This document shows positions 1,468-58,612 of a stretch of DNA of 64,000 nt, in pieces. The stretch is from Gracilaria domingensis (Eukaryota; Rhodophyta; Florideophyceae; Gracilariales; Gracilariaceae), in assembly GCA_022539475.1 (NCBI GenBank), contig VCMS01000002.1, positions 88,672 through 152,671 on the forward strand, read 5' to 3'. The notes below the pieces were generated by a model. That model was not told where the DNA came from, searched no databases, and worked only from the letters and a program-made list of their open reading frames with translations. How positions within the stretch are numbered: the first letter of the stretch is position 1; the number at the start of each line of letters is the position of its first letter. The translations under genes and the position numbers were made by a program.

Positions 1468-4400
1468 TCACCCCGCCCCGTGCAGCCGCTGCATCCGCTC
1501 CACCCTCTGCACCAGCTCCTCTACCTCCACGTTTACCATCGACGCTATCTTTTTCATCTGCGCCATATTCAGGTCCAGGAACCGTTCAATCAGGTCCCCG
1601 TCCACAAAGTTCTTCGCCGCCGCGCTTCTCGGCGGCGACTCCGCCTTCATCTCCCTCCACTCACTATGCTTCAGTCCCCCCACACCCGGGATCAGCGTCG
1701 CCATTGCGTTCTGTACCTCCACGAAGAACTGGTACGCATCCGCCTTCAGTGTCGCAATAACGCCCAGCATCCCATCAGTCGTGCCGAAGATCATCGTATT
1801 CAGCGCCGGCGATTCATTTTCAGCCAATTGCATTACAAGTGACCCATGCTCGATTCCATTCACCCTCGCCCCCAGATGAAATTGGCCAACTCGTTCAAGC
1901 CGCTCTCTTACGGCTTCAGATGTTGCACGAGAGTTCCGCTTGAACGTGTACAAATGCTTCGAGTGATCTGCTACCATGTATGTGTCATCATCTAGCATTT
2001 CAATTGCCATCACCCACACCACTTCGTAGTCCCTCGCCAATTGTTCCAGCCGATAGTTATCTCCGATCTTCCTGCAAGACAGTACTGAGATCGACCGCAT
2101 TACATCACCCACCAATACAAAGTCTCCCCGCAGCTTCACCCTGTACGCCAGTGTGTGCCCTCGATGTCGATGAAGCAACCGAATATTCAGCATCCCATCC
2201 TTGCGTTCTGCCATGGACAGCACCTGAACCTCGGGTCCCACAGATATAATTAGCATACCGTTAAATGAATTCATGCTGTACACTGCGCCGTGGCACTCTC
2301 GCTCTGCCACCAGTATGGCCTTTCCTTCGATCACTCGGAAAATTAGCATACGTCCGTCCTTAGGATCTTCATCTCCAGGCAGGTCGAACGCCGTTCCAAC
2401 CGCCAGAAACTGCTCATTCTTATCAATGCCACTTCCAGTAAACGTGGTCGCAAGAATGGAGTTCCCGTTCTCCATTGTCTTCAGTTTGTACTTGGACAGT
2501 GTGTCATACCGCGAATCATCTATAATTCTTACATAGCACTCCAGTATTTCTTCCCCATTGCTATCAACAACCGAAGTCTCAGTGATCACTCCAAAGCATT
2601 TCGCAAGCTCCATGTGCGCTATACGACGCGGCTGCTCTCCCAATGGCACAGATGTGATATGCAGTTTCTGGATTTCGTCCACCTCGCCCAAATGCAGCCC
2701 GTTCTCAGTTGCAATGGCCAACGAGTCAGGGAACGCCTCGGTGTCAAAACCGCAAACACGAGTCACCTCTTGTAAATTGACATTGGAAACAAGCAGCTTC
2801 CCTCCCCCAGTGGTAGAGTACACCACCGTTGGGCGATCGCAAGCTGCAAACACATGATTTGCACCTCGACTCCTGAAAACACTCAATTGGGCTGGTTGTG
2901 TGCCAACGCTCAGTTTCCTTCGCTCTGAAACAATTGATAACTGCGTCGAAGAATCTAGCTCCTCAGACGATGCAGCTGTCATCGCAACCTCGCTATTCAC
3001 AGAGTATGTGAGCAGATAACCGTCTCCTAGACCCACAAGCAGATAGTGATGTCCTTCAAGAGTGGCCAAAAGAACTGATCTAGCAATAACATCACCTCCT
3101 AGCCCAATTGTTTCTATCGTTCTTAAAGACGGCAGCGCCAGCAACTTCACGACCGGAACTTCCTTCACTTCAGCCCACAATCCGACAACAGCCAGATACG
3201 CCTCTCCTCTGCTAATAACCGGTTCCTCCACATCCGTCATCTGTGATGAAGATGGTAGAAAGTTGCAGTTAAGGCATGAAATCTCCCTTTCCATCTCTGC
3301 CTGCTTGACTTCAATCAGATTCTTCTTTTCTGGGTCAACCTTCAACAAAATCAAATTTCCACCGGTTGTCGCGAGCAATAGCTGATGTGTGTTTCCAGAT
3401 GCTACTGAAATACGCATGTTGGCGGGAGGAGCCCAGCTCAAAGTAGGCTGCGCAGTCATTGTCACGGCATCGGTAACTTGCACGCCCTTCGTTGTGACCT
3501 GGACCATTATATCACCCTCCATGTTGGCAGCATACAACGTCGGAGTGTCTTCGTCAAAACCCGGCACAATCGCTGGTGCCATTTCATCAGCGCTGATGAG
3601 TTCCAGAGTGCGCGTAGCCGACGTAAAACTCTGAAGCAAATAAGAGTCATATCTATTATCAATGTGTCGTCTCAAAGAAAACATGTCCTTGATACCAGGT
3701 AACTCTTCGGCTGCATGCTCAGATATACCTATTCCGTTCCGTATAATCCTCAACGAACCATCTTTTCCTTGGCCTGAACACGTGACTACTTGACCTTGAC
3801 CGTGTCGCAAGTAGCCCATGCCTTTCACAATACAAAAGTCAAGAATGGGCCCGAGATGAGAGTATGTTTGAACGACCTCAACGAAGCTTCCCGTCTCCTT
3901 ACTTCGCTCACGTCTTAGTCGAACGAGTTGCGAATCGCCAGTGTGAGATCCAATAAAGGCAAAAGCGCTATCGAGGTACGATATGCAGCAGGCAGTACTT
4001 GTTTCGCCAAGTGTTTCTAGTTTGATACCGGTAACGGTGTGTTTCTGATCTGTGATTAATAGAAGAATGCTGAGATAGCCTTTTTGATCGCCTATAAGAT
4101 ACCTTGTGCCTTGTTCGTCCACCATACCGACGGCTGTGATAATTGTGGCTTCAAACGGTTGCGATACGTGCTCGCCATTGGCGGTAATGTGCGTCACAAG
4201 GTCATCTCCAAATACAAGAACGCCGCCTACAGGTTCGGGAACGGCAACAAGCTTCGACGCCGTCACATCCAGCACTGCATTCTTCCAAGAACCTTGCGCA
4301 ATGTCTTGGTCGATCATGCGGATCTCGTAGGTACGCAGCTCGCGATTCTCTTTGCCGTGCGCACACAGTACGGCGACGGTGGGGTTCTGACAGCCGTAGA

Positions 4401-4896
4401 GGAAAACCATGTCAAAGATGGTATCCTCCACGAGCCTAACGTTAAAAGCGGTTTTATCTGCGTCGCGCTCCGTGGGGACCACCTTGAGCAACCGCTTGTA
4501 TTGATGGAGCGCAATGCACTTGGCCTTGGGATCAACAATGCTCATGCGTTCGGAGACTCCACTCGAAACAAAATGGTCCTGCATATCGCCGGACGATACG
4601 ACGTGACAGCGAGCCTCGATGGGGTTCCATCGCAAGATACAGAGCTTGTACTTCTCTGTAATAACGACGAGTTGGTCCTGAGTCTCGCCGGCCATGCGCA
4701 TGAGATGCATGCCGGATATGGTGCCATGAATAGGAAGCTCAATGGCGCAGGCAAGGCCTTCTTTGGTGATTGTGTAGACCTGGATGTAGTTAACCTTTGC
4801 AACGAGCAGGTTGCGCTGATCCGGGGCAAGAAAGCTGCCCACGGCGGTGTGGGACACGCGCGACGCCTTGTGCGCGGTGACGACGTAGTTGTACAT
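1468..4896 (-). CDS. DDB1: DNA damage-binding protein 1 (CRL4 adaptor)
   Basis: A 1142-residue protein, almost the same length as animal and plant DDB1 (about 1140), in one exon. DDB1 is the adaptor that joins CUL4 to DCAF substrate receptors and also binds UV-damaged DNA with DDB2; it acts mainly in the nucleus. The start at 4896 was chosen because it gives the conserved N-terminal strand MYNYVVTAHK. An upstream in-frame ATG would add 18 residues absent from the family. Recognisable blocks are LLGDQKG/LGET in the first propellers, the highly conserved RIIRNGIGI segment, and the C-terminal helical domain with NFVDGDLIERFLDL near residue 1085. The three-propeller layout is inferred from family alignment. 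It is divergent from the giant gene at 5554. Confidence 0.96.
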   Translation of the reverse strand: MYNYVVTAHKASRVSHTAVGSFLAPDQRNLLVAKVNYIQVYTITKEGLACAIELPIHGTISGMHLMRMAGETQDQLVVITEKYKLCILRWNPIEARCHVVSSGDMQDHFVSSGVSERMSIVDPKAKCIALHQYKRLLKVVPTERDADKTAFNVRLVEDTIFDMVFLYGCQNPTVAVLCAHGKENRELRTYEIRMIDQDIAQGSWKNAVLDVTASKLVAVPEPVGGVLVFGDDLVTHITANGEHVSQPFEATIITAVGMVDEQGTRYLIGDQKGYLSILLLITDQKHTVTGIKLETLGETSTACCISYLDSAFAFIGSHTGDSQLVRLRRERSKETGSFVEVVQTYSHLGPILDFCIVKGMGYLRHGQGQVVTCSGQGKDGSLRIIRNGIGISEHAAEELPGIKDMFSLRRHIDNRYDSYLLQSFTSATRTLELISADEMAPAIVPGFDEDTPTLYAANMEGDIMVQVTTKGVQVTDAVTMTAQPTLSWAPPANMRISVASGNTHQLLLATTGGNLILLKVDPEKKNLIEVKQAEMEREISCLNCNFLPSSSQMTDVEEPVISRGEAYLAVVGLWAEVKEVPVVKLLALPSLRTIETIGLGGDVIARSVLLATLEGHHYLLVGLGDGYLLTYSVNSEVAMTAASSEELDSSTQLSIVSERRKLSVGTQPAQLSVFRSRGANHVFAACDRPTVVYSTTGGGKLLVSNVNLQEVTRVCGFDTEAFPDSLAIATENGLHLGEVDEIQKLHITSVPLGEQPRRIAHMELAKCFGVITETSVVDSNGEEILECYVRIIDDSRYDTLSKYKLKTMENGNSILATTFTGSGIDKNEQFLAVGTAFDLPGDEDPKDGRMLIFRVIEGKAILVAERECHGAVYSMNSFNGMLIISVGPEVQVLSMAERKDGMLNIRLLHRHRGHTLAYRVKLRGDFVLVGDVMRSISVLSCRKIGDNYRLEQLARDYEVVWVMAIEMLDDDTYMVADHSKHLYTFKRNSRATSEAVRERLERVGQFHLGARVNGIEHGSLVMQLAENESPALNTMIFGTTDGMLGVIATLKADAYQFFVEVQNAMATLIPGVGGLKHSEWREMKAESPPRSAAAKNFVDGDLIERFLDLNMAQMKKIASMVNVEVEELVQRVERMQRLHGAG

Positions 4897-5553: not shown

Positions 5554-8500
5554 ATGGACGCCGGCCAGGCGTCCATGTCAGCCCAAGATGCTTCCTTGTT
5601 CCCGTTCATTCTGTTTGTTCTTGCCTTCGTCCTATGGATTGTGGTTGTCGTCCTTGTCGTCCCACGCCTTTTAGGTCGCGCCGTTTCTTTCTTCACCAAC
5701 CGTGCGTTTGGAGATGACCTACGTCTCGTCATACATTCCATCTATATCTATCCACTTGCAGGACGAGCCGTCGCACATTCTGTGCAATACACCGTCCCCA
5801 ACGGAACCATAGACGTCGAGCAACTCGTGCTGCAAATACGATGGTGGCGCAAGTCACCCGTCGTCGATTTCAACCAACTTCTCACTGTCGACCAACCGGC
5901 TACGTTGGACCGTTTCGCGCACGCGCAACAAGAGCTCCAGAAAGAGAACACCGCCTTTTTCCTTAAACGTCCGTTATATCGTTTGCGAAGATGCTGGCGA
6001 CGCGCAGCTGCTGCTGCCGATGTTAACGATTCTACGGAGCCGTCCGCTCTCATCTCCATCCATTGCATTGGTTTACGAACGCGAATGGTCAACTATCAGT
6101 CAAACTACAACCTCCTCAGACGAGTCACAGAACTAGCAAGAAATGCGTCGAGACGTGCTAGTTTCGTCAATAACAGTGTGCGCTCGAGGGATGTTTGCAA
6201 CGCTGCCTCTGAATCCGCGGGCCCTGCCATGTCAAGTCCGTCCAGCGTATATGATAAGCTCCCATCCTCATCCCGCTCATCGTTTTCGTCAGTGCAATCG
6301 GTCGATGAGAAGCCGCTCATCGAACACTTGCTAGAACTAACGTCTTTTCGTATAACCCACGGCGCTTTCTACTTCTGCGATATGGGTGAATCCCCTTTGG
6401 TTCGTCTCTCTGTCAAGTCGGCCAAACTACGTTATATGTATGGTGCTCCAAGTTGCCCTGTTGACAAATGTCGCAAGCGTATTCGCATGCGAATGTCGGG
6501 GCTGAGACTAAGCGTTGCGGATAAGGCTTCCGTGAAGAATGTGATTCGCGTCACCTCGGAGGATAATTCGATCGCTGATAGTGACTCTGAAGATGCAAAT
6601 TATCAGGACGAAAGCAACACCAATCGAATGATTCGAAGGGTTTTATCTCGGGGGTATAGGGGTATCAGTGAACCAATCTTCGAGGCGCAGGCAAAGAATG
6701 AATCGCGTAGTGGTTCGACGAACAGAAGGAATCAGCGTCCCGGACTGAAGGCGCACTTCATGCACCCCAAAACGTGGAGCCTAAATCGAAAATCCCACAG
6801 AAGCCGCTCCCTTCCGTGTTCGGACGTATTGAATGCTGAGACGGCTATCATCGATTATGTTTTCGATGAACCGGGCGTAGAGCATGTTTCTCGACGTGGA
6901 ACATCGTCCCGGAAACGGAGCGGGAGAACGGAAGAGAATTTTGGCGTGCGAGACGATTCAAACACTAACCCGCCACCCGTATGCCGTGTCTCCATCGTAT
7001 TAAGGGGGACCTCATTTTCGTACGACGTGCAGGCCATCGCAGATATTGAAAGGGTGCTCGAGAGACTACAACCACCATTTTATGATCTTGTGCCAGTAGC
7101 GAAAAGATTGTTCTCGAGGGAAGGAAAACGAGCAGCCACTGGAATACAGATCACTGTCGATGCTACTCCAGTTTCCGCCGACAATTCGTCGAGCAATGGC
7201 TCACGTCCTGGGAAACCTCTTCTTTCCATTCCGTTTGGTGCCCAGGAAACCACATGGAAAGCTTTGGAACTGCTTAATATCCGAACCTGGAAGTCACCGA
7301 ATCTGTCCAACAGCACCCCAGGTAGCGAAAGGAAAAAAGGTTTTCCTATTCAGAGCAGACTGTTGGTGAAAGCATCGAAAGTTTCTCTACGAACAGAGAT
7401 ACCCTACGAGTATGGTGCGCCTCAGAAAACAGTGGTGACGTTCAAGGACATCGATGCACTTGTTGAAGGAATTGTAAACATGCCTATTGGTTGCTCAAAG
7501 CTTGTTACACTTACTCGAATAGTTCAAACTCCTCAAGTGTGGAACGATGAACATCACGTATCATACGATATATTGACATCTCAAACAGAGTTCAGGTTCT
7601 TTCCTGACACGCTTCGAATATTTACCGACATTAGCACGACGATTAGAGAGCATTCCAAAAAACCTGAGAGCATCCGATACTTCGTTCCCTATCGAGAAAG
7701 AGTGAATATACGCGCCGAAGATGAATACTCCATTTTTCTAACATGCAGTCACGACAACGCATGGAATGATGTTCAAAATGGGATATCAGACCAATACGGA
7801 GTAGTCAAGATGCATGGAACGAATGCTGAGTTGGACATGAAACAGGTTGCAACGTCATCCTTCGTAAATGATTCATCTGAACTTCATTGGTCTCTATCTC
7901 TACCGAAGGTGTCCGGTAAGCTCGCTCTGGATGTTTCTCAGATGCTCACTTCTATTCAAAAGAGCGAGGCAAAACCTGACGTTGCGGATGGGAGAAACAC
8001 TGGCGTGTCGTATTTCCACAAGTCACGAACGCCATCGCTTGCACAGAGAATGCTCCTGCAAATTGAAACGTTCGTAGCACACCATAACAGTGTATTACCG
8101 GAAGCGATATCTGAAACAACCAGAGATGTCATCGAGCGAACTTTCCTTACCGCTGGTGAGAGATGTGAGTTGTCGGGAAAGCTCGTCTCAAATGATGGTA
8201 TGCTTTTCCTCGAAGGTCCCAAGCACGCCTTTCTTGACTCGGTGAATTGGAGCGAAATGCGATTCAGCGCCTCGAGTATAGTCGTAGATCTAAATCCACA
8301 CCATACGACATCATTTCTGAATGTCACAAGGAATTATGCATGTGGTGGTAATCACACCATTTCATCCAAGGAACAGTCTCGGATTGAAGAAAGACGAAGG
8401 CCGACTTCTCTACGTATCATCGGGGCTGGTCGTTATCCGAACACAGCAGAATGTCTTACAATGGGACTTGGTAGTGGCCTCGTCATGAGCTCCGGAGGCA

Positions 8501-11500
8501 CGCACAATGCAGCGGATGACGTTTTTGAAATGAATCTTGAGATTGATTCCTTACTGTTGCGCATTCACGAGCTTCCGCATCCATTGTCTCCGTTCTCTTT
8601 GGCACCTGAACATGTCTGCTCTGTAGTATCCGCTGATTTCGGAGGCTCCCTTCGGTCAAATCGACTAGGGTCTGAAATGAAGTTCTTTCCGAGGGCGAGG
8701 AGAAAGCAGGTATCCATTTTCGGCGGATATCTGCCATGCTCCTCAATAAGGACGAAGAGCGAGAATACGTTCATTAACGAAGATCACTCTCTTCCTCGAA
8801 CTGTTCTCAAAGGACTTCGTCTCTTGAAACGAAGTGCAGCCAGTCCGTTTTGGGGTTCCTACAACTCGGAGCTGATATTAGAAATTGACGAAGTGAAAGG
8901 GTGTATCATGGATTACAGTCTGAAGTGTTTGTCAGGCTTCATCACTTCCGCAATCCCGCATCCCCTATACGAAGACCAAACTGCTATTGCATCCATGTTA
9001 TCAGTTGACACCATACAGTTTCGCGTTGGTTCCAGTGACTTTTTTGTTCTATCACCAGGAAGTTCTATTGCTGCGCGGAGATCAGGACAGCGAAGTCGAA
9101 ATATGCCAAACCGAACTGAGAAGAGTCCAGACGAACATTTCTTGCAAAAGATCGTCCCAAAGTTCCTTCAAGCCATAACACATGTGTCATTAAGCAAGGG
9201 CTTGCGTTTTGTCATCTCTTCTCTGGCAACAGAAACATTGGCATCACGGAGCCGATTGTTAATTTCAGAACTGAGTTTAGAAATCATGATTCCTTGGGAC
9301 GATAAGCTGCCTCCCTGGGTGGATGAAGCCACTATGCGAGCCCAAGTATCACATTCAAGCCCGCTCGGAACAGAACCATCTTCAAGTCTATTCAAGGGTA
9401 TTGGAGTGCTGAGGAAAGTAGGGGAATGCAGAAGAGCTGAACTTGATATGTTCATGGAGTTCAAGCCGTCAATTTGGTCCTCTCGCATTGCGTTTCTCCA
9501 AGAAGGACATGTTACGGCACTTTTTGATAAGTTTGGTCGACGCATCCCGCGATGGACTACAAACAATCTGTTTCTAAAATCTGACGGGCGCATTGAATCT
9601 GAACCAAACACCCCTTCAAACCAAGAATGGTGGGATTTCATTTCCGATGGGAAAGAGGCATTGATTGTTAAGACCAGAAAGAAGGATTCTGACAGAGATG
9701 TGCGGTTAGAGACGACGTCCGTATCATTTCCCGCTCCGATTGTCTTTAAGATATCTCCATCGTGCGTAGAAGTACTCAATGATATGGTGACAAGAATGCA
9801 AGAAGGATTATCCAGATATAAGTATAGTTCGGAAAATGCCGGGGATGGGCAAAGTTTCTCAAGCGATGACGGATTGTTAGCCTTATGGACTAGTTATGAA
9901 CAGAACAGTCGATCTGTAATTCCGAGGCATCTGTTGCTTCATGCTCCTCGAACTAATACCTTGAAGGCACTCGAAACCGTAGAACTGTCGGTACACGTGC
10001 TTCCCCCCATTGCCGTCGAGTCCTTGGATGCAGATCGATTCTCTAACCTGCGCACAGATGCTGCGACATTGATACTTTCTCTTCCGCGAGGGTTGCATTT
10101 CTTGCATTCTGCACTAACGGGTTTTGACGAAGGAAATCATGATGTCCACGACCCTTTGTCAGGCTCCGCTTCGCAGCCCCCATCTGGTTTCATTTCAATG
10201 AAGACAGTTTTTCACACCTCTATACATTCCATTGCTCTACAATGCTATCGACGAGGTCAGGATCCAGCAGAAGTTGGAATTGTCAAGGAAATCACGTTCA
10301 TTTTGCGCGACCATGTCATCGCCAAGGATGGACCACTCGGAGGGAATTTCTCAAATCCTCGCCAAAGAGAAAAGAACCACGCCGTAGTGGGTAAAGTTGG
10401 GTCTTTTAGTCTTGGGTCCGGAGAAAGCTCTCTTTCCGCGTATACCAGTTTTGGGAAGAGTGCTTCTGTTTTTCTTCTCTTGCTCAGAACTTTGGCCTTA
10501 AACCACAGTTCACTACAGCAACTAGAAGCGGAAGTACTAGAAGCTATATCCACTCGATATCTAGGGACTTCATTAGCCTCGTTACACCAAAAACATCATT
10601 CAGAGGTTTATCGCTTACTTGTCCGTGAAAGGCGCATGGTTTCGGGGGTAAAGAACCAGCTGTTCAAGCAAATCCGAACTGGGCATGAGGAAAATGAAAC
10701 GTCGAAAGAGTTCGTGATCGACTCCTCCCAATACAATGGCACTAACTATGTGAAATCTATGGATCTGGCAGTAAGAAATGTCAGTGTGAAGATTAGCAAA
10801 GAAGAAATGCTGTATGTCAACGTTTTTCTTTGCAAGACGGGCTCGTCAACTAAATCTGGAGATCGTATTCCCCAGAATCGGCACGAAATAGTTATCAAGG
10901 CAGCGTTTGGTATTGTAACCGTGTTTATGACCGATCACATCGCAGCAAACTCGTTGCGAATGGTATCGGAGGTTGCTTCATTTGTGGGCAGAGCGACAAG
11001 GTTCTTTCCAATGTTAAGGAGTGATACTGAGCAAACGGAAGATTATGATGCGGGAAGCTTGACTTTTGTTTCTTCCCCAAGTAGGGCGGATAATTATGAC
11101 CAGCAGAGTTCTAGAAGAAGGTATCCTATCGAGTATGCTGGTCTTTCTGGGAATAATTCTGGAGGCTTAGAAAGCGATACCTTTCGCTGGTCTCCACGCT
11201 CATATCGTCGGTTGGGTCATGCTCGATCTGTCCCGCGGTTTCAGGTCACCTCATCGGGGGCTAGAGATCTCGGCCAGGCTGAGCGTCAGCCAAATTCCGT
11301 TCAAACTTCGACATCTGCCTCTCGACGTCTCACTACTTCTCATAATCGACCCAACGGGTTACATAACACGGAAGCCGACTCTTCCGTGCAAAACCTAAGT
11401 CCTAGTTCTAAGAATGGTTACAACGCAAACAGTTTCCTCACTAGTAAGAATGACAATTCTTTAGTAAGGGGAGTCACACGCATGATGAGGTCGCAGGAAA

Positions 11501-14500
11501 AGGAAACGGGTTCTCTTATAGCAAGTGAGGAATCGAGTATGTATCAAGTAGTTGCTGTGACTACTTCAAGGGAAACAGGTCCCCCTCTCAAGCGGGCAAA
11601 GCGTATGATCCCTAAAACTGTTGTTCCACCAGCATTCATTCGACCAAAGAAATCAATGGAAGAATCGCTGACACGCAAATTCTCGCCGGCTATGCACGAC
11701 CAGAAAGGATTTCGGTCACCAGCTTACCCCGATAGGAAAGGGCGAGAGCAAGCAAAGCAAAAAAGAAACGGACGGCGAACGCAATCAATTCGCTCTATAG
11801 ATGACAGCCACACCAAGCGGGTCTCGCTAATTTCAAAGCCCAAGCTATTGATTTCTCCGGGTAGCTTCCCAAACATCACCATGTTCTTATCATTCAAGAA
11901 GGTTGAAATGCAGTACATGCGCGGAAGATATGTGTCGATCAAAGATCGACATGATGCAAGTAGGAAAACGGTAAGAGATGCAGGTGTAATCCTTCTAGTG
12001 AACCAGCCAAGGTTGACACTAATGTCTTCAGCAAACGGTATGTGCTCTATTGTACTGACCGCTTCATCTTCCGATCTTCGGTCTTCGAATGACCCGAAGT
12101 GCACCATGGCCGGAGCAATCTCCCGGTTTGGGGTGACCATAAGTATCGCTCAAGATATGTTTCCCCGAAGCCCTCCCAAGCTTATTTTGTCTGCTCGCAT
12201 CTCCGAGTTCGTCGCTACCTTGGAGGCACGTGATTTGCAATCAGTCCTCAAGTTTCGAGAAGAATTCAAAGAAGACCTTAAAGGCGTTCTTACGGCATTC
12301 ATGTCAACCAAAGATTCTATATCCGAAATGGCCCGAGCTACGAGGCTAATGTCATCTTCTCTAGGGCGAAGAGCTCTGTTTTCGACTGTTGCAATTGACT
12401 TGCTCTTTGAAGATTCTAAAGTAATTCTGAAGGGTTTCCATCCACAAGACACGTCAATGAGCATCACCTACCTTTTGGACGGACTTTTCTTCTCAGCAGT
12501 AGCGTCTGAAGCGGACAGTGCAGCTCTAACGCTCGGTTTACGGCTATATGGGCATGGTCTATGTTTGGCTGCGCCTGCTTGGGGCTCTGCCGAAGTTCTG
12601 CGATTTCCTAGTTTGGATGCCCGCGGGGTTCAGTGGGTGGAATCAATAGGTGTCCCGACTTTATTGAAAGTTACCGCAGAACCTCTGACAAACTCAACCT
12701 CAGTTCAGGGACTCCGCCATATTCTGTTCACAGTATCAGGATTGATGGCGTTTCAGAACTTACCTGCAACCCCTGGTGATTCTCGTCTTCACGACAGCAC
12801 TCGTCTAGGAAATCCAGATCCTGACCTGCCTTACCGAGAAGACCCCGATCCCGTGCCGGGTACCCCCCTGACCCGCTCTTTCGCTGCTTGGGAAAGAACG
12901 AAAGGAGTTCGTATGGAGTTGTCCATCCGACCCATGTCTCTGAGCCTGGTAAGCGGTCCGGTTGTGGCATTGTTTCATTTGCAAGCGGTGACCGGTACGT
13001 TCGAATGGAATAAGCTGGTAGAGAAAGGTGTCCAACTTCAAACTGCGATCAATATCCCAAGAATTTCGCTTTCGTTTATGCGCATGCCATCCGCAGACTT
13101 TTCTGTACAAGAAATCAAACCTGAAGATGATAGAACAAGTTTGTCTGTTGCGTTAGAGAGATCTCGCGTGGATGTGCTGAAGTCTCAGGAAGACCTTCAA
13201 CATACATTCATATTTCGCGTAGAGGTCCACGGCGTGTCGGGAAAGCTCCACCCATGGCGACTTTTACGAGACGCTGCTGCTTGGGCTGATGAACAAGAGT
13301 TTGTTTCTGATCTACAGTCCATGAACTACAATACTCTGTCTTCTAATCGTCAGCGTCTCCCCAAACCTGTGGGCACAACCAAACAAACCGAGCATCGCGT
13401 GATTCTCGTGGGATTTAATGTTCAACGTTTCAAACTAGCGGTTCCACTCCTAAGCTCAGAGGAGTACTCTTCATCGAGATTGGCACTCAGTGCGACAAAT
13501 CTACATTTGTTTGCTCGGCAAAGATTCGAAAACCCCGATATCTCTGTTAGAAATGTCATAGAAGTGAAGTCTAACTTTATAGGCATCTTCTGGGAAAGTT
13601 CATCGTTGCTAAGTTCACATCATGCCCGTATTGTTTTGGCAATCAATCATAATTCGCAAGAAGGATTGTCTCTGTTCGGACCAACATCAGTCGTGATAGT
13701 TCCAGGAACATGGATGATTCACCCGAGGAAAGATTTCATCATGGCTATAAACGAAGCAAAGAACGTCAAGGAGTACAAACACTTTTCAGAGAAAACAAAG
13801 GAAATGATTTCCCGCCCGGATGCGTCTAGACCGGGCAGTAGTGTGGCGGGTGATTCTACTTCTAATCCAACTGAAAAACAAGATCGTTTGCTCGTAGAGA
13901 GCCTGAGATTCAAGATAACGAGAACAAGCGGGTTTATCGAAGGTCTCGGAGATGCAGAAGACGGACTCTATGCGAAACAGACAGGGTCCGTAGCTACTGA
14001 TCTTGTGGCAAAGTTAAGTATACCGGCTTTTAGTATAGCCATTGCAAGGGATGTGAATCACGATTTTGACCTTATAGACGTAGACTTCTCTGGAAGGGAA
14101 GGAGAATTTCCTCAAAAATGTCTACAGCGTGTTTCGAATCTGTTCACTGAGTTGTTTGGGGCTGATGCTGGGGAACAAGAACTGACACAGGATCACTTGT
14201 ATTTTAAGGAGTCTCCAAACCGAGTGCCAGGACGGAAAGTTTCTCGAGAAGTTAGCTTGTTAGTTCGTTTTGGAGAGTCTTTATATCGAGCGCAGGAAGA
14301 AGCCAACATGTCATTTGAGTCGAAGTTCGGCTTTTTCGCAGGAAAACACTCAGCCATTTTGTTGTCAGTAGCAACAGCACCTGTTTTTGGAGAGGAAGAA
14401 ACTCACACAACAGTTTACACTGGTATATCCCCGGATTTGAAGCTTGAAATCACCCCTCTTCTTGAGGGTGCCACTCCTCAGAGTTTGCGGTTATCGACGG

Positions 14501-16233
14501 CGAGGATGTTGCATGGCATAAGCCCATGTTTCGCACCACATTCACTTTTCCATGTATCTCGTGTTACCGCATTGATGGAAGTGAAGACTGTGCTGTTGGC
14601 TGAAAGACGTCATCGGCTGCAACTACCAAAAATATCTGCAACTGGAGCTGCGGAAGCTTCAAATTCAATTCTACCGGTGTTCGAGAGTTCTGAGAGAAAT
14701 GCCCTCGTCGTGCTTGGCAGAACAAAACAAAAGGGTAGTACAAGAGCTGGAGAGGGAGCTACTCAACCTGCAATAATCAAATCAACGTCGATAATACCAG
14801 ACCGTGACGTAACAGATAATACGATGTCTGCTGAGCCCTCCACAGGTTCAGAGATCAAAGTAGAACCGGTCATTCGACTACAACTGAAGTTCGATTCCAC
14901 ACCAAATGCAAAGGTCAGTCAGATGGATGTTTTCGTCTACCGTCTCCTCTTCGGTACTAACCGCTCAAGGACCTCGGCAAGCGTGCCAGCTCCCTCTATT
15001 GGATCGTATGCTATACTTCATCAGGGGCTGGTTAGGGCGAAGTGGGACTTCTTAAGTTGTAATCTGTCGCTCAGAGAGAATATGCTGTACAGCATACGAT
15101 CCATGGAAGATTCACCACGTCGTAACTGGACTTGCGTTGGGAACATATTGAACCATTTGAAGTTTGATGTCCTGAGATATGATACTCATACTTTGCGGCT
15201 GAGTATTGATGCATTGGCGATGAGTTGTTACGCTCTGCCGTATGTTGTTGTTTTCGAAAGCACTGACATAAGAACGGATGTCTCACATACTCTGCTTCAG
15301 GCTATTGCGAGGCTTATGAGTCTTGTTAAGAAGCTCAAAAATGAAGTTAAGCTTCTATCTGGGAGAGACATCGCCAAAGGATCCAAGCCAGTGGGACACA
15401 AAGAGCCCACGATACGAGACAATCTAATTTCTGCACGTAGTGATCGTGAAGAGAGTTTGTCCGACGCACGAGAAGAAGGGCAAACGGAAGTCAGTGCAAA
15501 CCTGTCCTCTGAAGCTTTTGCTCACGTTCTTCGAATGAGCAGCGAAACTCTCCTTCTGCCGACCGGGACCAGTGTTAGTATGAAGGGAAGAAGTTTGGTG
15601 TTGGTCATGAGGGGTTATCAATTTGACGAACGTCGCCACAACGCAACAGTTTCTCTATCGGGGTATGATTTGCGACACAGGCATTTGGTCGTGGCGGATG
15701 AGTCTATTAGGACATTGAAAGAGAAAAAGCTGGAATTCAACTTTGATATCATGAAGCTTTCTTACAAGGACGAGGAACGACAGATTATCAGTGATTTATG
15801 CAAAGTTCCTGATCCAGCTCTTGTTCTTCGTGTGCGGGACGATTCGCAATCGCTAGAGGTAGACTTGCAAGGCAATCTGGACATTAAGCTCGGTTCAGGG
15901 TTCTACAACTGGAGACACTTCAGAGATCTTGCTGTTCTTACTCTCTATGGCATAGACGTCGTCCCTAATGCCCAGGAATCTGCAGGCCGAAGTGATGGGG
16001 CATCACCAGCTCGTGATGATGACCACTGGAATGGGAGAACTCCTCAACTGACAGTCAACTTGAACCCAAGAATTGATGTAATAGGAGATTTCACATCTGA
16101 CGTCTTGCACAGGATGAAGGACAGGCTCGGAAATGGAGAAGACATACCAGGATATATGTACCATCACATGGTTCTGCCTTTAGAGGCATTGGCGGAGCTG
16201 GTCTGTGGTTCGCTGGTTAGACAGAGATTGTGA
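5554..16233 (+). CDS. Giant bridge-like lipid transfer protein (BLTP1/Csf1 family)
   Basis: An uninterrupted 3559-residue open frame. The N-terminus has one strongly hydrophobic segment (residues 15-40), then the family signature at about 49-104: NRAFGDD, an IYIYPLAGRA block and paired tryptophans (RWWRKS). Fungal Csf1 and animal BLTP1 (Tweek/KIAA1109) start the same way: an ER-anchored transmembrane helix feeding a long hydrophobic groove that moves phospholipids between membranes, supporting GPI-anchor synthesis among other processes. Yeast Csf1 is about 2950 residues and human BLTP1 about 5000, so the length fits. A Ser/Arg-rich, probably disordered insert lies near residues 1830-2070. No C-terminal membrane segment is obvious. 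The ATG at 5554 is preceded by an in-frame stop at 5536. The assignment rests on the N-terminal signature and overall architecture; the middle is too divergent to judge by eye. Confidence 0.85.
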   Translation: MDAGQASMSAQDASLFPFILFVLAFVLWIVVVVLVVPRLLGRAVSFFTNRAFGDDLRLVIHSIYIYPLAGRAVAHSVQYTVPNGTIDVEQLVLQIRWWRKSPVVDFNQLLTVDQPATLDRFAHAQQELQKENTAFFLKRPLYRLRRCWRRAAAAADVNDSTEPSALISIHCIGLRTRMVNYQSNYNLLRRVTELARNASRRASFVNNSVRSRDVCNAASESAGPAMSSPSSVYDKLPSSSRSSFSSVQSVDEKPLIEHLLELTSFRITHGAFYFCDMGESPLVRLSVKSAKLRYMYGAPSCPVDKCRKRIRMRMSGLRLSVADKASVKNVIRVTSEDNSIADSDSEDANYQDESNTNRMIRRVLSRGYRGISEPIFEAQAKNESRSGSTNRRNQRPGLKAHFMHPKTWSLNRKSHRSRSLPCSDVLNAETAIIDYVFDEPGVEHVSRRGTSSRKRSGRTEENFGVRDDSNTNPPPVCRVSIVLRGTSFSYDVQAIADIERVLERLQPPFYDLVPVAKRLFSREGKRAATGIQITVDATPVSADNSSSNGSRPGKPLLSIPFGAQETTWKALELLNIRTWKSPNLSNSTPGSERKKGFPIQSRLLVKASKVSLRTEIPYEYGAPQKTVVTFKDIDALVEGIVNMPIGCSKLVTLTRIVQTPQVWNDEHHVSYDILTSQTEFRFFPDTLRIFTDISTTIREHSKKPESIRYFVPYRERVNIRAEDEYSIFLTCSHDNAWNDVQNGISDQYGVVKMHGTNAELDMKQVATSSFVNDSSELHWSLSLPKVSGKLALDVSQMLTSIQKSEAKPDVADGRNTGVSYFHKSRTPSLAQRMLLQIETFVAHHNSVLPEAISETTRDVIERTFLTAGERCELSGKLVSNDGMLFLEGPKHAFLDSVNWSEMRFSASSIVVDLNPHHTTSFLNVTRNYACGGNHTISSKEQSRIEERRRPTSLRIIGAGRYPNTAECLTMGLGSGLVMSSGGTHNAADDVFEMNLEIDSLLLRIHELPHPLSPFSLAPEHVCSVVSADFGGSLRSNRLGSEMKFFPRARRKQVSIFGGYLPCSSIRTKSENTFINEDHSLPRTVLKGLRLLKRSAASPFWGSYNSELILEIDEVKGCIMDYSLKCLSGFITSAIPHPLYEDQTAIASMLSVDTIQFRVGSSDFFVLSPGSSIAARRSGQRSRNMPNRTEKSPDEHFLQKIVPKFLQAITHVSLSKGLRFVISSLATETLASRSRLLISELSLEIMIPWDDKLPPWVDEATMRAQVSHSSPLGTEPSSSLFKGIGVLRKVGECRRAELDMFMEFKPSIWSSRIAFLQEGHVTALFDKFGRRIPRWTTNNLFLKSDGRIESEPNTPSNQEWWDFISDGKEALIVKTRKKDSDRDVRLETTSVSFPAPIVFKISPSCVEVLNDMVTRMQEGLSRYKYSSENAGDGQSFSSDDGLLALWTSYEQNSRSVIPRHLLLHAPRTNTLKALETVELSVHVLPPIAVESLDADRFSNLRTDAATLILSLPRGLHFLHSALTGFDEGNHDVHDPLSGSASQPPSGFISMKTVFHTSIHSIALQCYRRGQDPAEVGIVKEITFILRDHVIAKDGPLGGNFSNPRQREKNHAVVGKVGSFSLGSGESSLSAYTSFGKSASVFLLLLRTLALNHSSLQQLEAEVLEAISTRYLGTSLASLHQKHHSEVYRLLVRERRMVSGVKNQLFKQIRTGHEENETSKEFVIDSSQYNGTNYVKSMDLAVRNVSVKISKEEMLYVNVFLCKTGSSTKSGDRIPQNRHEIVIKAAFGIVTVFMTDHIAANSLRMVSEVASFVGRATRFFPMLRSDTEQTEDYDAGSLTFVSSPSRADNYDQQSSRRRYPIEYAGLSGNNSGGLESDTFRWSPRSYRRLGHARSVPRFQVTSSGARDLGQAERQPNSVQTSTSASRRLTTSHNRPNGLHNTEADSSVQNLSPSSKNGYNANSFLTSKNDNSLVRGVTRMMRSQEKETGSLIASEESSMYQVVAVTTSRETGPPLKRAKRMIPKTVVPPAFIRPKKSMEESLTRKFSPAMHDQKGFRSPAYPDRKGREQAKQKRNGRRTQSIRSIDDSHTKRVSLISKPKLLISPGSFPNITMFLSFKKVEMQYMRGRYVSIKDRHDASRKTVRDAGVILLVNQPRLTLMSSANGMCSIVLTASSSDLRSSNDPKCTMAGAISRFGVTISIAQDMFPRSPPKLILSARISEFVATLEARDLQSVLKFREEFKEDLKGVLTAFMSTKDSISEMARATRLMSSSLGRRALFSTVAIDLLFEDSKVILKGFHPQDTSMSITYLLDGLFFSAVASEADSAALTLGLRLYGHGLCLAAPAWGSAEVLRFPSLDARGVQWVESIGVPTLLKVTAEPLTNSTSVQGLRHILFTVSGLMAFQNLPATPGDSRLHDSTRLGNPDPDLPYREDPDPVPGTPLTRSFAAWERTKGVRMELSIRPMSLSLVSGPVVALFHLQAVTGTFEWNKLVEKGVQLQTAINIPRISLSFMRMPSADFSVQEIKPEDDRTSLSVALERSRVDVLKSQEDLQHTFIFRVEVHGVSGKLHPWRLLRDAAAWADEQEFVSDLQSMNYNTLSSNRQRLPKPVGTTKQTEHRVILVGFNVQRFKLAVPLLSSEEYSSSRLALSATNLHLFARQRFENPDISVRNVIEVKSNFIGIFWESSSLLSSHHARIVLAINHNSQEGLSLFGPTSVVIVPGTWMIHPRKDFIMAINEAKNVKEYKHFSEKTKEMISRPDASRPGSSVAGDSTSNPTEKQDRLLVESLRFKITRTSGFIEGLGDAEDGLYAKQTGSVATDLVAKLSIPAFSIAIARDVNHDFDLIDVDFSGREGEFPQKCLQRVSNLFTELFGADAGEQELTQDHLYFKESPNRVPGRKVSREVSLLVRFGESLYRAQEEANMSFESKFGFFAGKHSAILLSVATAPVFGEEETHTTVYTGISPDLKLEITPLLEGATPQSLRLSTARMLHGISPCFAPHSLFHVSRVTALMEVKTVLLAERRHRLQLPKISATGAAEASNSILPVFESSERNALVVLGRTKQKGSTRAGEGATQPAIIKSTSIIPDRDVTDNTMSAEPSTGSEIKVEPVIRLQLKFDSTPNAKVSQMDVFVYRLLFGTNRSRTSASVPAPSIGSYAILHQGLVRAKWDFLSCNLSLRENMLYSIRSMEDSPRRNWTCVGNILNHLKFDVLRYDTHTLRLSIDALAMSCYALPYVVVFESTDIRTDVSHTLLQAIARLMSLVKKLKNEVKLLSGRDIAKGSKPVGHKEPTIRDNLISARSDREESLSDAREEGQTEVSANLSSEAFAHVLRMSSETLLLPTGTSVSMKGRSLVLVMRGYQFDERRHNATVSLSGYDLRHRHLVVADESIRTLKEKKLEFNFDIMKLSYKDEERQIISDLCKVPDPALVLRVRDDSQSLEVDLQGNLDIKLGSGFYNWRHFRDLAVLTLYGIDVVPNAQESAGRSDGASPARDDDHWNGRTPQLTVNLNPRIDVIGDFTSDVLHRMKDRLGNGEDIPGYMYHHMVLPLEALAELVCGSLVRQRL

Positions 16234-58018: not shown

Positions 58019-58612
58019 TCAGGTTGCAAGATAAATAAGCACAATGTTCTCGCCTCGGATGAGCAACTGGCCTACTCGTCGCGCATCAAGTCCATAGTCC
58101 TGGATCACAGCATTCTTGACGACGACATTCATGTGTCGGTCAAAGGCCACCACAACGCCTTCGACAAATCCTCTGATTCGATGACGCTCGCGGAGTCGAA
58201 TGCGTAGAAGTAGTTTGTTGGCGACAGCTCGACCAAGAAGCTCAAGCGGACCTTTTGCCGCCTTGTCATGGATGGACTGCAGCACGCTGAGGCGACGCTC
58301 GCTTTTGTCGGCGTGCTGAGATGCGTCTCGGGGACGTTTTCTTGAGGGCGTGGTGAGATTGGCGGTGACCGGGGCCGGTTTGAGGATGCGGTACGGGGCA
58401 TGTTCCAAATGAGCGCAGGCTGCCACATTGTCAACAGGCTGGGCCCTATCGAATATGGCTTGATCTCGCGCTGTGGGCAAAGTGGCGCGAAAGGCTGAAA
58501 GGTGTTGTTGCAAGGCTAACTCAGGATCGAATTGCTCAGAAAATGGGTTTAACTGAGCTCTGGTTGGGCTGCTGGGTGGGCTGCTGGGTGGGTCAGGGTT
58601 GTCAGCGGTCAT
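58019..58612 (-). CDS. LSM11: LSM11-like Sm-fold protein (U7 snRNP type)
   Basis: A 197-residue protein. The N-terminal motif LNPFSEQFDPELAL (21-34) matches the FDPLxAL element of animal LSM11. A Ser/Pro and basic linker (60-120) follows. The Sm1 motif (about 133-166) contains RIRGFVEGVVVAFDRHMNVVV, close to the LSM11 segment in which a Gly-rich strand leads into VAFDKFWN. The Sm2 motif (182-194) is LLIRGENIVLIYL, matching the IRGENVLLVHL of LSM11. Canonical LSm proteins usually have RG-N/D without this GEN form. The spacer between Sm1 and Sm2 is only about 15 residues, against more than 100 in human LSM11. In animals LSM11 with LSM10 replaces SmD1/D2 in U7 snRNP, which cuts histone pre-mRNA. 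Alternative: another divergent LSm protein. Confidence 0.72.
   Translation of the reverse strand: MTADNPDPPSSPPSSPTRAQLNPFSEQFDPELALQQHLSAFRATLPTARDQAIFDRAQPVDNVAACAHLEHAPYRILKPAPVTANLTTPSRKRPRDASQHADKSERRLSVLQSIHDKAAKGPLELLGRAVANKLLLRIRLRERHRIRGFVEGVVVAFDRHMNVVVKNAVIQDYGLDARRVGQLLIRGENIVLIYLAT

Follow-up and report, generated by a model that had tools for sequence, protein, structure and literature searches.

The 64,000-nucleotide (nt) stretch of Gracilaria domingensis DNA analyzed here, hereafter the window, contains at 58019..58612 on the minus strand a gene that, with a probability of about 0.8, codes for a compact LSM11 belonging to a U7-type machine for histone pre-mRNA 3′-end processing in a red alga. 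The genome (77.9 Mb, 680 contigs) holds the LSM11-like gene, genes for LSM10 and SLBP, histone genes followed by stem-loops, and a common element downstream of these stem-loops. An earlier note on this DNA had proposed an LSM11 and U7-type histone processing from the window's sequence, and this genome context (a leftover Sm gene, LSM10, SLBP, and stem-loop histones) supports the proposal. Below, C and L numbers denote contigs and loci of the assembly.

The LSM11-like gene is a complete frame of 197 codons running from ATG to TGA, with no intron within it. Six codons separate the ATG from the nearest in-frame stop before it, so that, barring an intron, the frame lacks no in-frame extension. LSM is the sole Pfam family matched (7.3e-11), and at 42 bits for a cut-off of 23.4 the match is beyond chance. 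Near the N-terminus, the motif FDPELAL (residues 28–34, 58511..58531, like all the following on the minus strand) is common to human LSM11, where FDPLLAL occupies residues 31–37 of the chains in PDB; only 9 of 2000 shuffles equal the local score of this region against the human N-terminus. Like the earlier note, we take FDPxLAL to be a general feature of LSM11, the comparison having been made with the human protein only. The motif is followed by a segment enriched in P, S, A, and basic residues. A possible basic helix (residues 101–118, 58259..58312) lies directly N-terminal to the Sm domain in a single-sequence structure prediction of low confidence (mean predicted local distance difference test score of 41). 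This helix might, speculatively, be the counterpart of the human LSM11 helix that touches CPSF73 (PMC12774660). The Sm1 motif (residues 121–168, 58109..58252) aligns without gaps to that of human LSM11 and includes VAFDRHMN at residues 155–162. The linker between Sm1 and Sm2 (residues 169–179, 58076..58108) has ~11 residues, so the long insertion of the human type is absent: in the PDB chain of human LSM11 the Sm1 stretch extends to about residue 210 and the Sm2 stretch starts at about residue 332, leaving ~120 residues between them. Most of this insertion is missing from the chain in the solved U7 complexes, and we therefore regard it as a trait of the lineage and not as a defining feature of LSM11. 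Sm2 (residues 180–196, 58025..58075) contains IRGENIVLIYLA at residues 185–196, and the protein stops one residue later, which is one residue after LA, as in human LSM11 (IRGENVLLVHLAQ); the C-terminal end, residues 185–197, reads IRGENIVLIYLAT. The FDPxLAL motif, the VAFD..MN core of Sm1, the IRGEN Sm2, and the lack of a long insertion in a protein of 197 residues are hence as the earlier note described them.

Pfam LSM has 26 matches in the genome, and frames were read at 21 loci besides the window. Among these are SmB, D1, D2, D3, E, F, and G, LSM1–8, an NAA38-like protein, and LSM10 (L044). The names are based on comparison with human sequences. One matching locus (L043) is an HtrA-like protease, and there are four LSM6-like genes (L002 and the extra copies L006, L007, and L008), three of them near-copies with the Sm2 end altered or with a stop that look like recent duplicates or retrocopies. 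All 15 places of the canonical Sm and LSM1–8 proteins are occupied by genes other than the LSM11-like one, those of SmE and SmD2 by clear single genes elsewhere in the genome. Since these places are filled, the LSM11-like gene is left over, and the two leftover Sm genes are an LSM10 plus an LSM11-like protein. L044 is LSM10. Its first exon extends to the GT after DSVDANM, the second carries RHITFVHVPEDVNVWETMEIH, and the third runs to GGKRRRR and a stop, with splice sites set by eye. Among PDB chains, human LSm10 comes first (3.6e-11, the next being 1e-5), L044 and human LSM10 are reciprocal best, and they pair in the tree with supports of 96/91, next to SmD1. This tree, from which the alga's SmB, LSM3, LSM5, LSM7, and NAA38 were left out, has nine human/alga pairs with a bootstrap of at least 95 (SmD1, SmD2, SmD3, SmF, LSM1, LSM2, LSM4, LSM6, and LSM10). 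Support is 100/97 for the SmD2 pair, 92/56 for the SmE pair, and 92 for LSM8, and SmG is not resolved. LSM10 and LSM11 are the subunits described as unique to the U7 small nuclear ribonucleoprotein (snRNP) (PMC12774660).

Along with LSM10, the earlier note had pointed to SLBP and to stem-loops after histone genes as checks of its proposal, and these too are present. SLBP has one match in the genome (C271:21014-21214, 9.1e-24) and none in the 14 control genomes. The frame carries RQKQVDYGKNTLAYDRF and GDPMTP, and in PDB it matches five chains, all of SLBP, the best at 3.2e-15. The histone family PF00125 has 17 matches, and the eight of PF15511 are two H4 genes and, in addition, six H3-type genes already known from PF00125. 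The comparison of 3′ regions covered 13 histone genes, six PF00125 matches being omitted (one on C5, two on C66, one each on C20 and C19, and C4:367271). Four of the 13, one per core histone, have a stem-loop of the histone type flanked by CAAA, together with a downstream element common to all four. These are an H3 at C12:311214 on the plus strand (AGGTGTA-TATT-TACACCT) and its divergent neighbor H4 at C12:310149-310334 on the minus strand (TGGTGGT-TTCTT-ACCACCA), and an H2B at C13:47936 on the plus strand (AGGTGTA-TTTT-TACACCT) and its divergent neighbor H2A at C13:47097 on the minus strand (AGGTGTA-TCTT-TACACCT). All four coding frames are uninterrupted. Each stem-loop is directly preceded by CAAA, at a distance of 27–84 nt counted from the stop codon's first base. 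The pattern GGTGTATNTTTACACC, which describes the stem-loop of H3, H2A, and H2B, occurs at exactly three places in the 77.9 Mb, all three after those genes, for an expectation of ~0.15 (hand estimate). With one mismatch there are five further places, all of one repeat, and the control pattern, read backwards, has three places at one mismatch or less. The repeat (L048–L052, on C84, C142, C157, C603, and C643) has near-identical flanks and holds GCTGTATCTTTACACC, one base off the histone stem-loop sequence.

The sequences that follow the stem are agacttgaagtcacttgttgg in H3, agatgtgaagaacttgtttgg in H4, cgattgaagaatgttgtcag in H2B, and cgaagagagagtcttgtcag in H2A. All four have GA at +2–3 and TTGT, at +14 in three of them and at +15 in the other. 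GAAG is found at +6/+7 in three, and at +2 in H2A. By hand estimate, a given 4-mer would recur within one base in three more sequences with a probability of ~2e-6, or ~3e-5 for any 4-mer of the stretch. The position of the element is where, by analogy, one would expect a U7-binding element.

The set of stem-loop, CAAA, and element is missing from the other nine 3′ regions, i.e., from three H3 genes on C145, the H3 on C17, the H2A on C81, the H2A and H2B on C61, the H4 on C32, and the divergent H3 on C4. Two observations count against a clean absence. The H2B on C61 (L023) has a perfect hairpin, GCGGTC-TTTC-GACCGC, at +136, with the animal-type loop TTTC and no CAAA, and the divergent H3 on C4 has GC-rich hairpins in its 3′ region. 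A perfect 6-bp hairpin arises in 7% of shuffled 3′ regions, and the one on C61 may be due to chance. There are hence two classes of core histone genes: the divergent H3-H4 (L015/L126, C12) and H2A-H2B (L022/L026, C13) pairs with stem-loops, and further copies without, such as the divergent H2A-H2B pair on C61 (L023/L025) and the genes on C145 (L016/L017/L020) and C32 (L125). Near an H3 on C145, a long AT-rich inverted repeat (L016:2441-2518) matches Rfam MIR7696 at 40.8 bits for a cut-off of 83, and is probably a repeat resembling miniature inverted-repeat transposable elements.

Several results weigh against the reading of this gene as the LSM11 of a U7-type machine. A PDB search with the LSM11-like protein gives archaeal Sm proteins (7e-7) and SmE (9e-6) before the LSM11 chains (0.0011–0.0029), and with Sm1 only, SmD2 and SmE come first (0.01) and LSM11 next (0.9). 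In correction of the earlier note, Sm motifs alone are insufficient to define LSM11. In shuffle-corrected comparisons of the Sm domain with 17 human Sm/LSm proteins, SmE (16.9) slightly exceeds LSM11 (15.6), followed by SmD2 (13.1) and the others (at most 10.7). Among the alga's own 14 proteins, SmD2 (16.0) scores highest, the SmE exon reaches 11.4, and the others are lower. The tree places neither the LSM11-like protein nor human LSM11; both sit in one open fork, separate from the SmD2 and SmE pairs. The approximately unbiased test rejects none of the forced groupings, with LSM11 (p = 0.28), SmE (0.08), or SmD2 (0.34), all being above 0.05. The Rfam model Histone3 has no match in nine histone loci, including the four stem-loop genes; its five matches elsewhere in the genome are all under the cut-off, and similar ones occur in all 14 control genomes. 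Finally, U7 small nuclear RNA (snRNA) was not found in the genome by the Rfam model, by a Sm-site pattern, or by a downstream-element pattern.

In the reverse comparison, human LSM11 against 15 sequences of the alga genome, the LSM11-like protein comes first (16.3), followed by SmD2 (12.5) and the others (at most 8.5). In this panel the alga's SmE and SmB are single exons, and its LSM3, LSM5, and LSM7 are outside. The two directions of the reciprocal comparison, which the earlier note had named among its tests, thus disagree: human LSM11 picks the LSM11-like protein, and the LSM11-like protein picks human SmE. Sequence scores alone leave the identity ambiguous. Features beyond the scores point to LSM11, namely the length of Sm1 (no gap position relative to LSM11, four relative to SmD2, and two relative to SmE), the C-terminal end, and FDPxLAL, and the genome context points to LSM11 as well.

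The U7-like snRNA that the earlier note had named as a further check was sought by three approaches. Rfam RF00066 has three matches, all under the cut-off (best E = 5.45), and similar ones occur in 12 of the 14 control genomes. The U7-type Sm site AATTTNTCTAG occurs at 67 places, with 63 for the backward pattern, hence without excess. All 67 were scored for a 3′ hairpin and for complementarity to the elements of H3, H2B, and H2A (the H4 element was found later). At one of them, C250:73485-73495 on the minus strand (L111), CTTCAATC is exactly complementary to GATTGAAG, the element of H2B; a hairpin of −9.0 kcal/mol is present, and no TATA-like box was seen. It is only a doubtful lead, because it lies between a reverse transcriptase-like frame on one strand and a gag-like frame on the other (L133, C250:71490-75490; assigned by eye). 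The downstream-element pattern, CTTCAN{2,15}AATTTNTCT, occurs at 63 places, against 26 for its control, and the sequence was seen for 33. At one of these, C154:21058-21074 on the minus strand (CTTCACATAATTTGTCT), 8 nt are complementary to the H4 element ATGTGAAG, and CTTCA and the Sm site are 3 nt apart. This lead is weak, because 63 places would be expected to yield about three 8-nt agreements of this kind (hand estimate). A search through snRNA promoters drew on one gene each for U2 and U4, the U4 match being under its cut-off, and these two have no clear upstream element in common.

By analogy with the animal U7 machine (PMC12774660, PMC7026596), LSM11 and LSM10 would replace SmD2 and SmD1 in the Sm ring on a U7-like RNA of 50–80 nt with AAUUUNUCU. 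The 5′ end of this RNA would pair with GA...GAAG...UUGU, ~2–18 nt past the histone stem-loop, while SLBP would hold the stem-loop itself. The cleavage complex (CPSF73, CPSF100, and symplekin), recruited with the help of the LSM11 N-terminus, would cut directly after the stem-loop. The products would be histone mRNAs without poly(A), made from a single H3-H4 pair and a single H2A-H2B pair, and transcripts of the remaining histone genes would be polyadenylated in the ordinary way. The animal case is the source of our inferences on the assembly of the ring, the pairing, the recruitment, the cleavage, and the lack of poly(A).

The protein could alternatively be a divergent extra SmE or SmD2, or a free Sm-like protein, serving spliceosomal or other RNPs and unrelated to histone mRNA. 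This is unlikely, as the genome has clear single SmD2 and SmE genes elsewhere, the protein shares with LSM11 the length of Sm1 and the C-terminal end as well as FDPxLAL, and LSM10, SLBP, and stem-loop histones are found in the same genome. It is less likely still that SLBP and the stem-loop serve the stability or translation of histone mRNA, with 3′ ends made without U7 RNA, and that LSM10 and the LSM11-like protein are bound to a different RNA. The absence of an identified U7 RNA in the alga would fit such an arrangement, and C. elegans offers a precedent, with a hairpin, a hairpin-binding protein, and a conserved downstream element and no known U7 RNA (PMC1924863). Against it, the four stem-loop histone genes of the alga have a downstream element in common, and LSM10 and LSM11 are considered specific to the U7 snRNP, as mentioned. 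To our knowledge, C. elegans has neither LSM10 nor LSM11.

Even if the gene is an LSM11, its compact form might result from recent shortening, or the gene might come from an animal or a contaminant, in which case it would tell nothing about ancestry. Only one genome was examined, and reduction is a known feature of red algal genomes (PMC6811547). This explanation is nevertheless very improbable, given the low similarity of the protein to human LSM11 and the distribution of a fully native set over contigs C2, C33, C271, C12, and C13 of one assembly, the alga's SmD1 being on the same contig, C2, as the LSM11-like gene.

Elsewhere in the window, positions 5554-16233 of the plus strand hold an uninterrupted frame of 3559 amino acids without Pfam match, which starts with a membrane helix followed by FGDDLRLVIHSIYIYPLAGRAVAHSVQYTVPNGTIDVEQL. 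This start presumably resembles those of the large bridge-like lipid transfer proteins (Csf1/BLTP1). At 1468-4896 on the minus strand, a protein of 1142 amino acids with the RSE1/DDB1/CPSF1 propellers and a CPSF_A domain is probably DDB1 and not CPSF160, by its length and layout. The genome has 14 phycobilisome linker domains (PF00427). On C680, a contig with a length of 179,836 bases, a frame of 878 amino acids has three linker repeats and one of 234 amino acids has one, and we infer that these are apcE and cpcG of the plastid genome. Ten further matches are spread over eight other contigs. For mesophilic red algae, but not for glaucophytes, diversified nuclear linker families have been described (PMC6811547), and the linker set speaks firmly for a mesophilic red alga.

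The compact LSM11 may bear on the origin of the system. It is conceivable, if somewhat short of an even chance, that a U7-type machine was assembled in the common ancestor of red algae and animals, near the root of eukaryotes, and that the insert-free LSM11 of 197 residues represents the original form, to which the insertion and the long N-terminus were added later in animals. The papers cited here discuss LSM10 and LSM11 in animals; if the proposal is true, the machine predates the split of Archaeplastida and animals, a small natural LSM11 becomes available for structural work, and a second code of stem-loop and downstream element, evolved apart from that of animals, can be compared with theirs. 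SLBP and stem-loops occur in several protists, and a 2008 survey of early histone 3′-end processing reportedly found them there. A literature search, with most subscription journals outside its coverage, found nothing, among the papers listed, on Lsm10/Lsm11 in algae or on U7 snRNA, SLBP, or the stem-loop in red algae, and the main text of a paper on the Galdieria spliceosome has no occurrence of Lsm, LSM10, or histone (PMC5880011). We are cautious about the novelty of LSM10 and LSM11 in red algae.

Outside animals, stem-loop histone mRNAs are described in the green algae Volvox and Chlamydomonas (PMC6827988), which thus share with this alga histone genes with a 3′ stem-loop. The present case differs in concerning a red alga, and in that LSM10 and an LSM11-like protein were found too, green algal LSM10 and LSM11 being outside the comparison. 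Human LSM11 (PDB 6v4x, 8g1u, 9n96, and 9nh5) resembles the algal protein in FDPxLAL near the N-terminus, the gap-free Sm1, the IRGEN Sm2, and the end after LA-x. It differs in having 360 residues instead of 197, with the Sm1-Sm2 insertion and a longer N-terminal part, and the algal protein does not score higher with it than with SmE in the forward comparison. Most of the insertion is also absent from the 259-residue human chain in 6v4x, 9n96, and 9nb1. With the animal U7 machine the alga has in common LSM10, the LSM11-like protein, SLBP, the stem-loop with its CAAA flank, and a common downstream element; it differs in that U7 RNA was not found, in the five-nucleotide loop of H4, and in the stems of H3, H2A, and H2B, which are closed by A-U instead of U-A. 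In animals, such an A-U swap lowers the binding of SLBP without abolishing it (PMC6827988).
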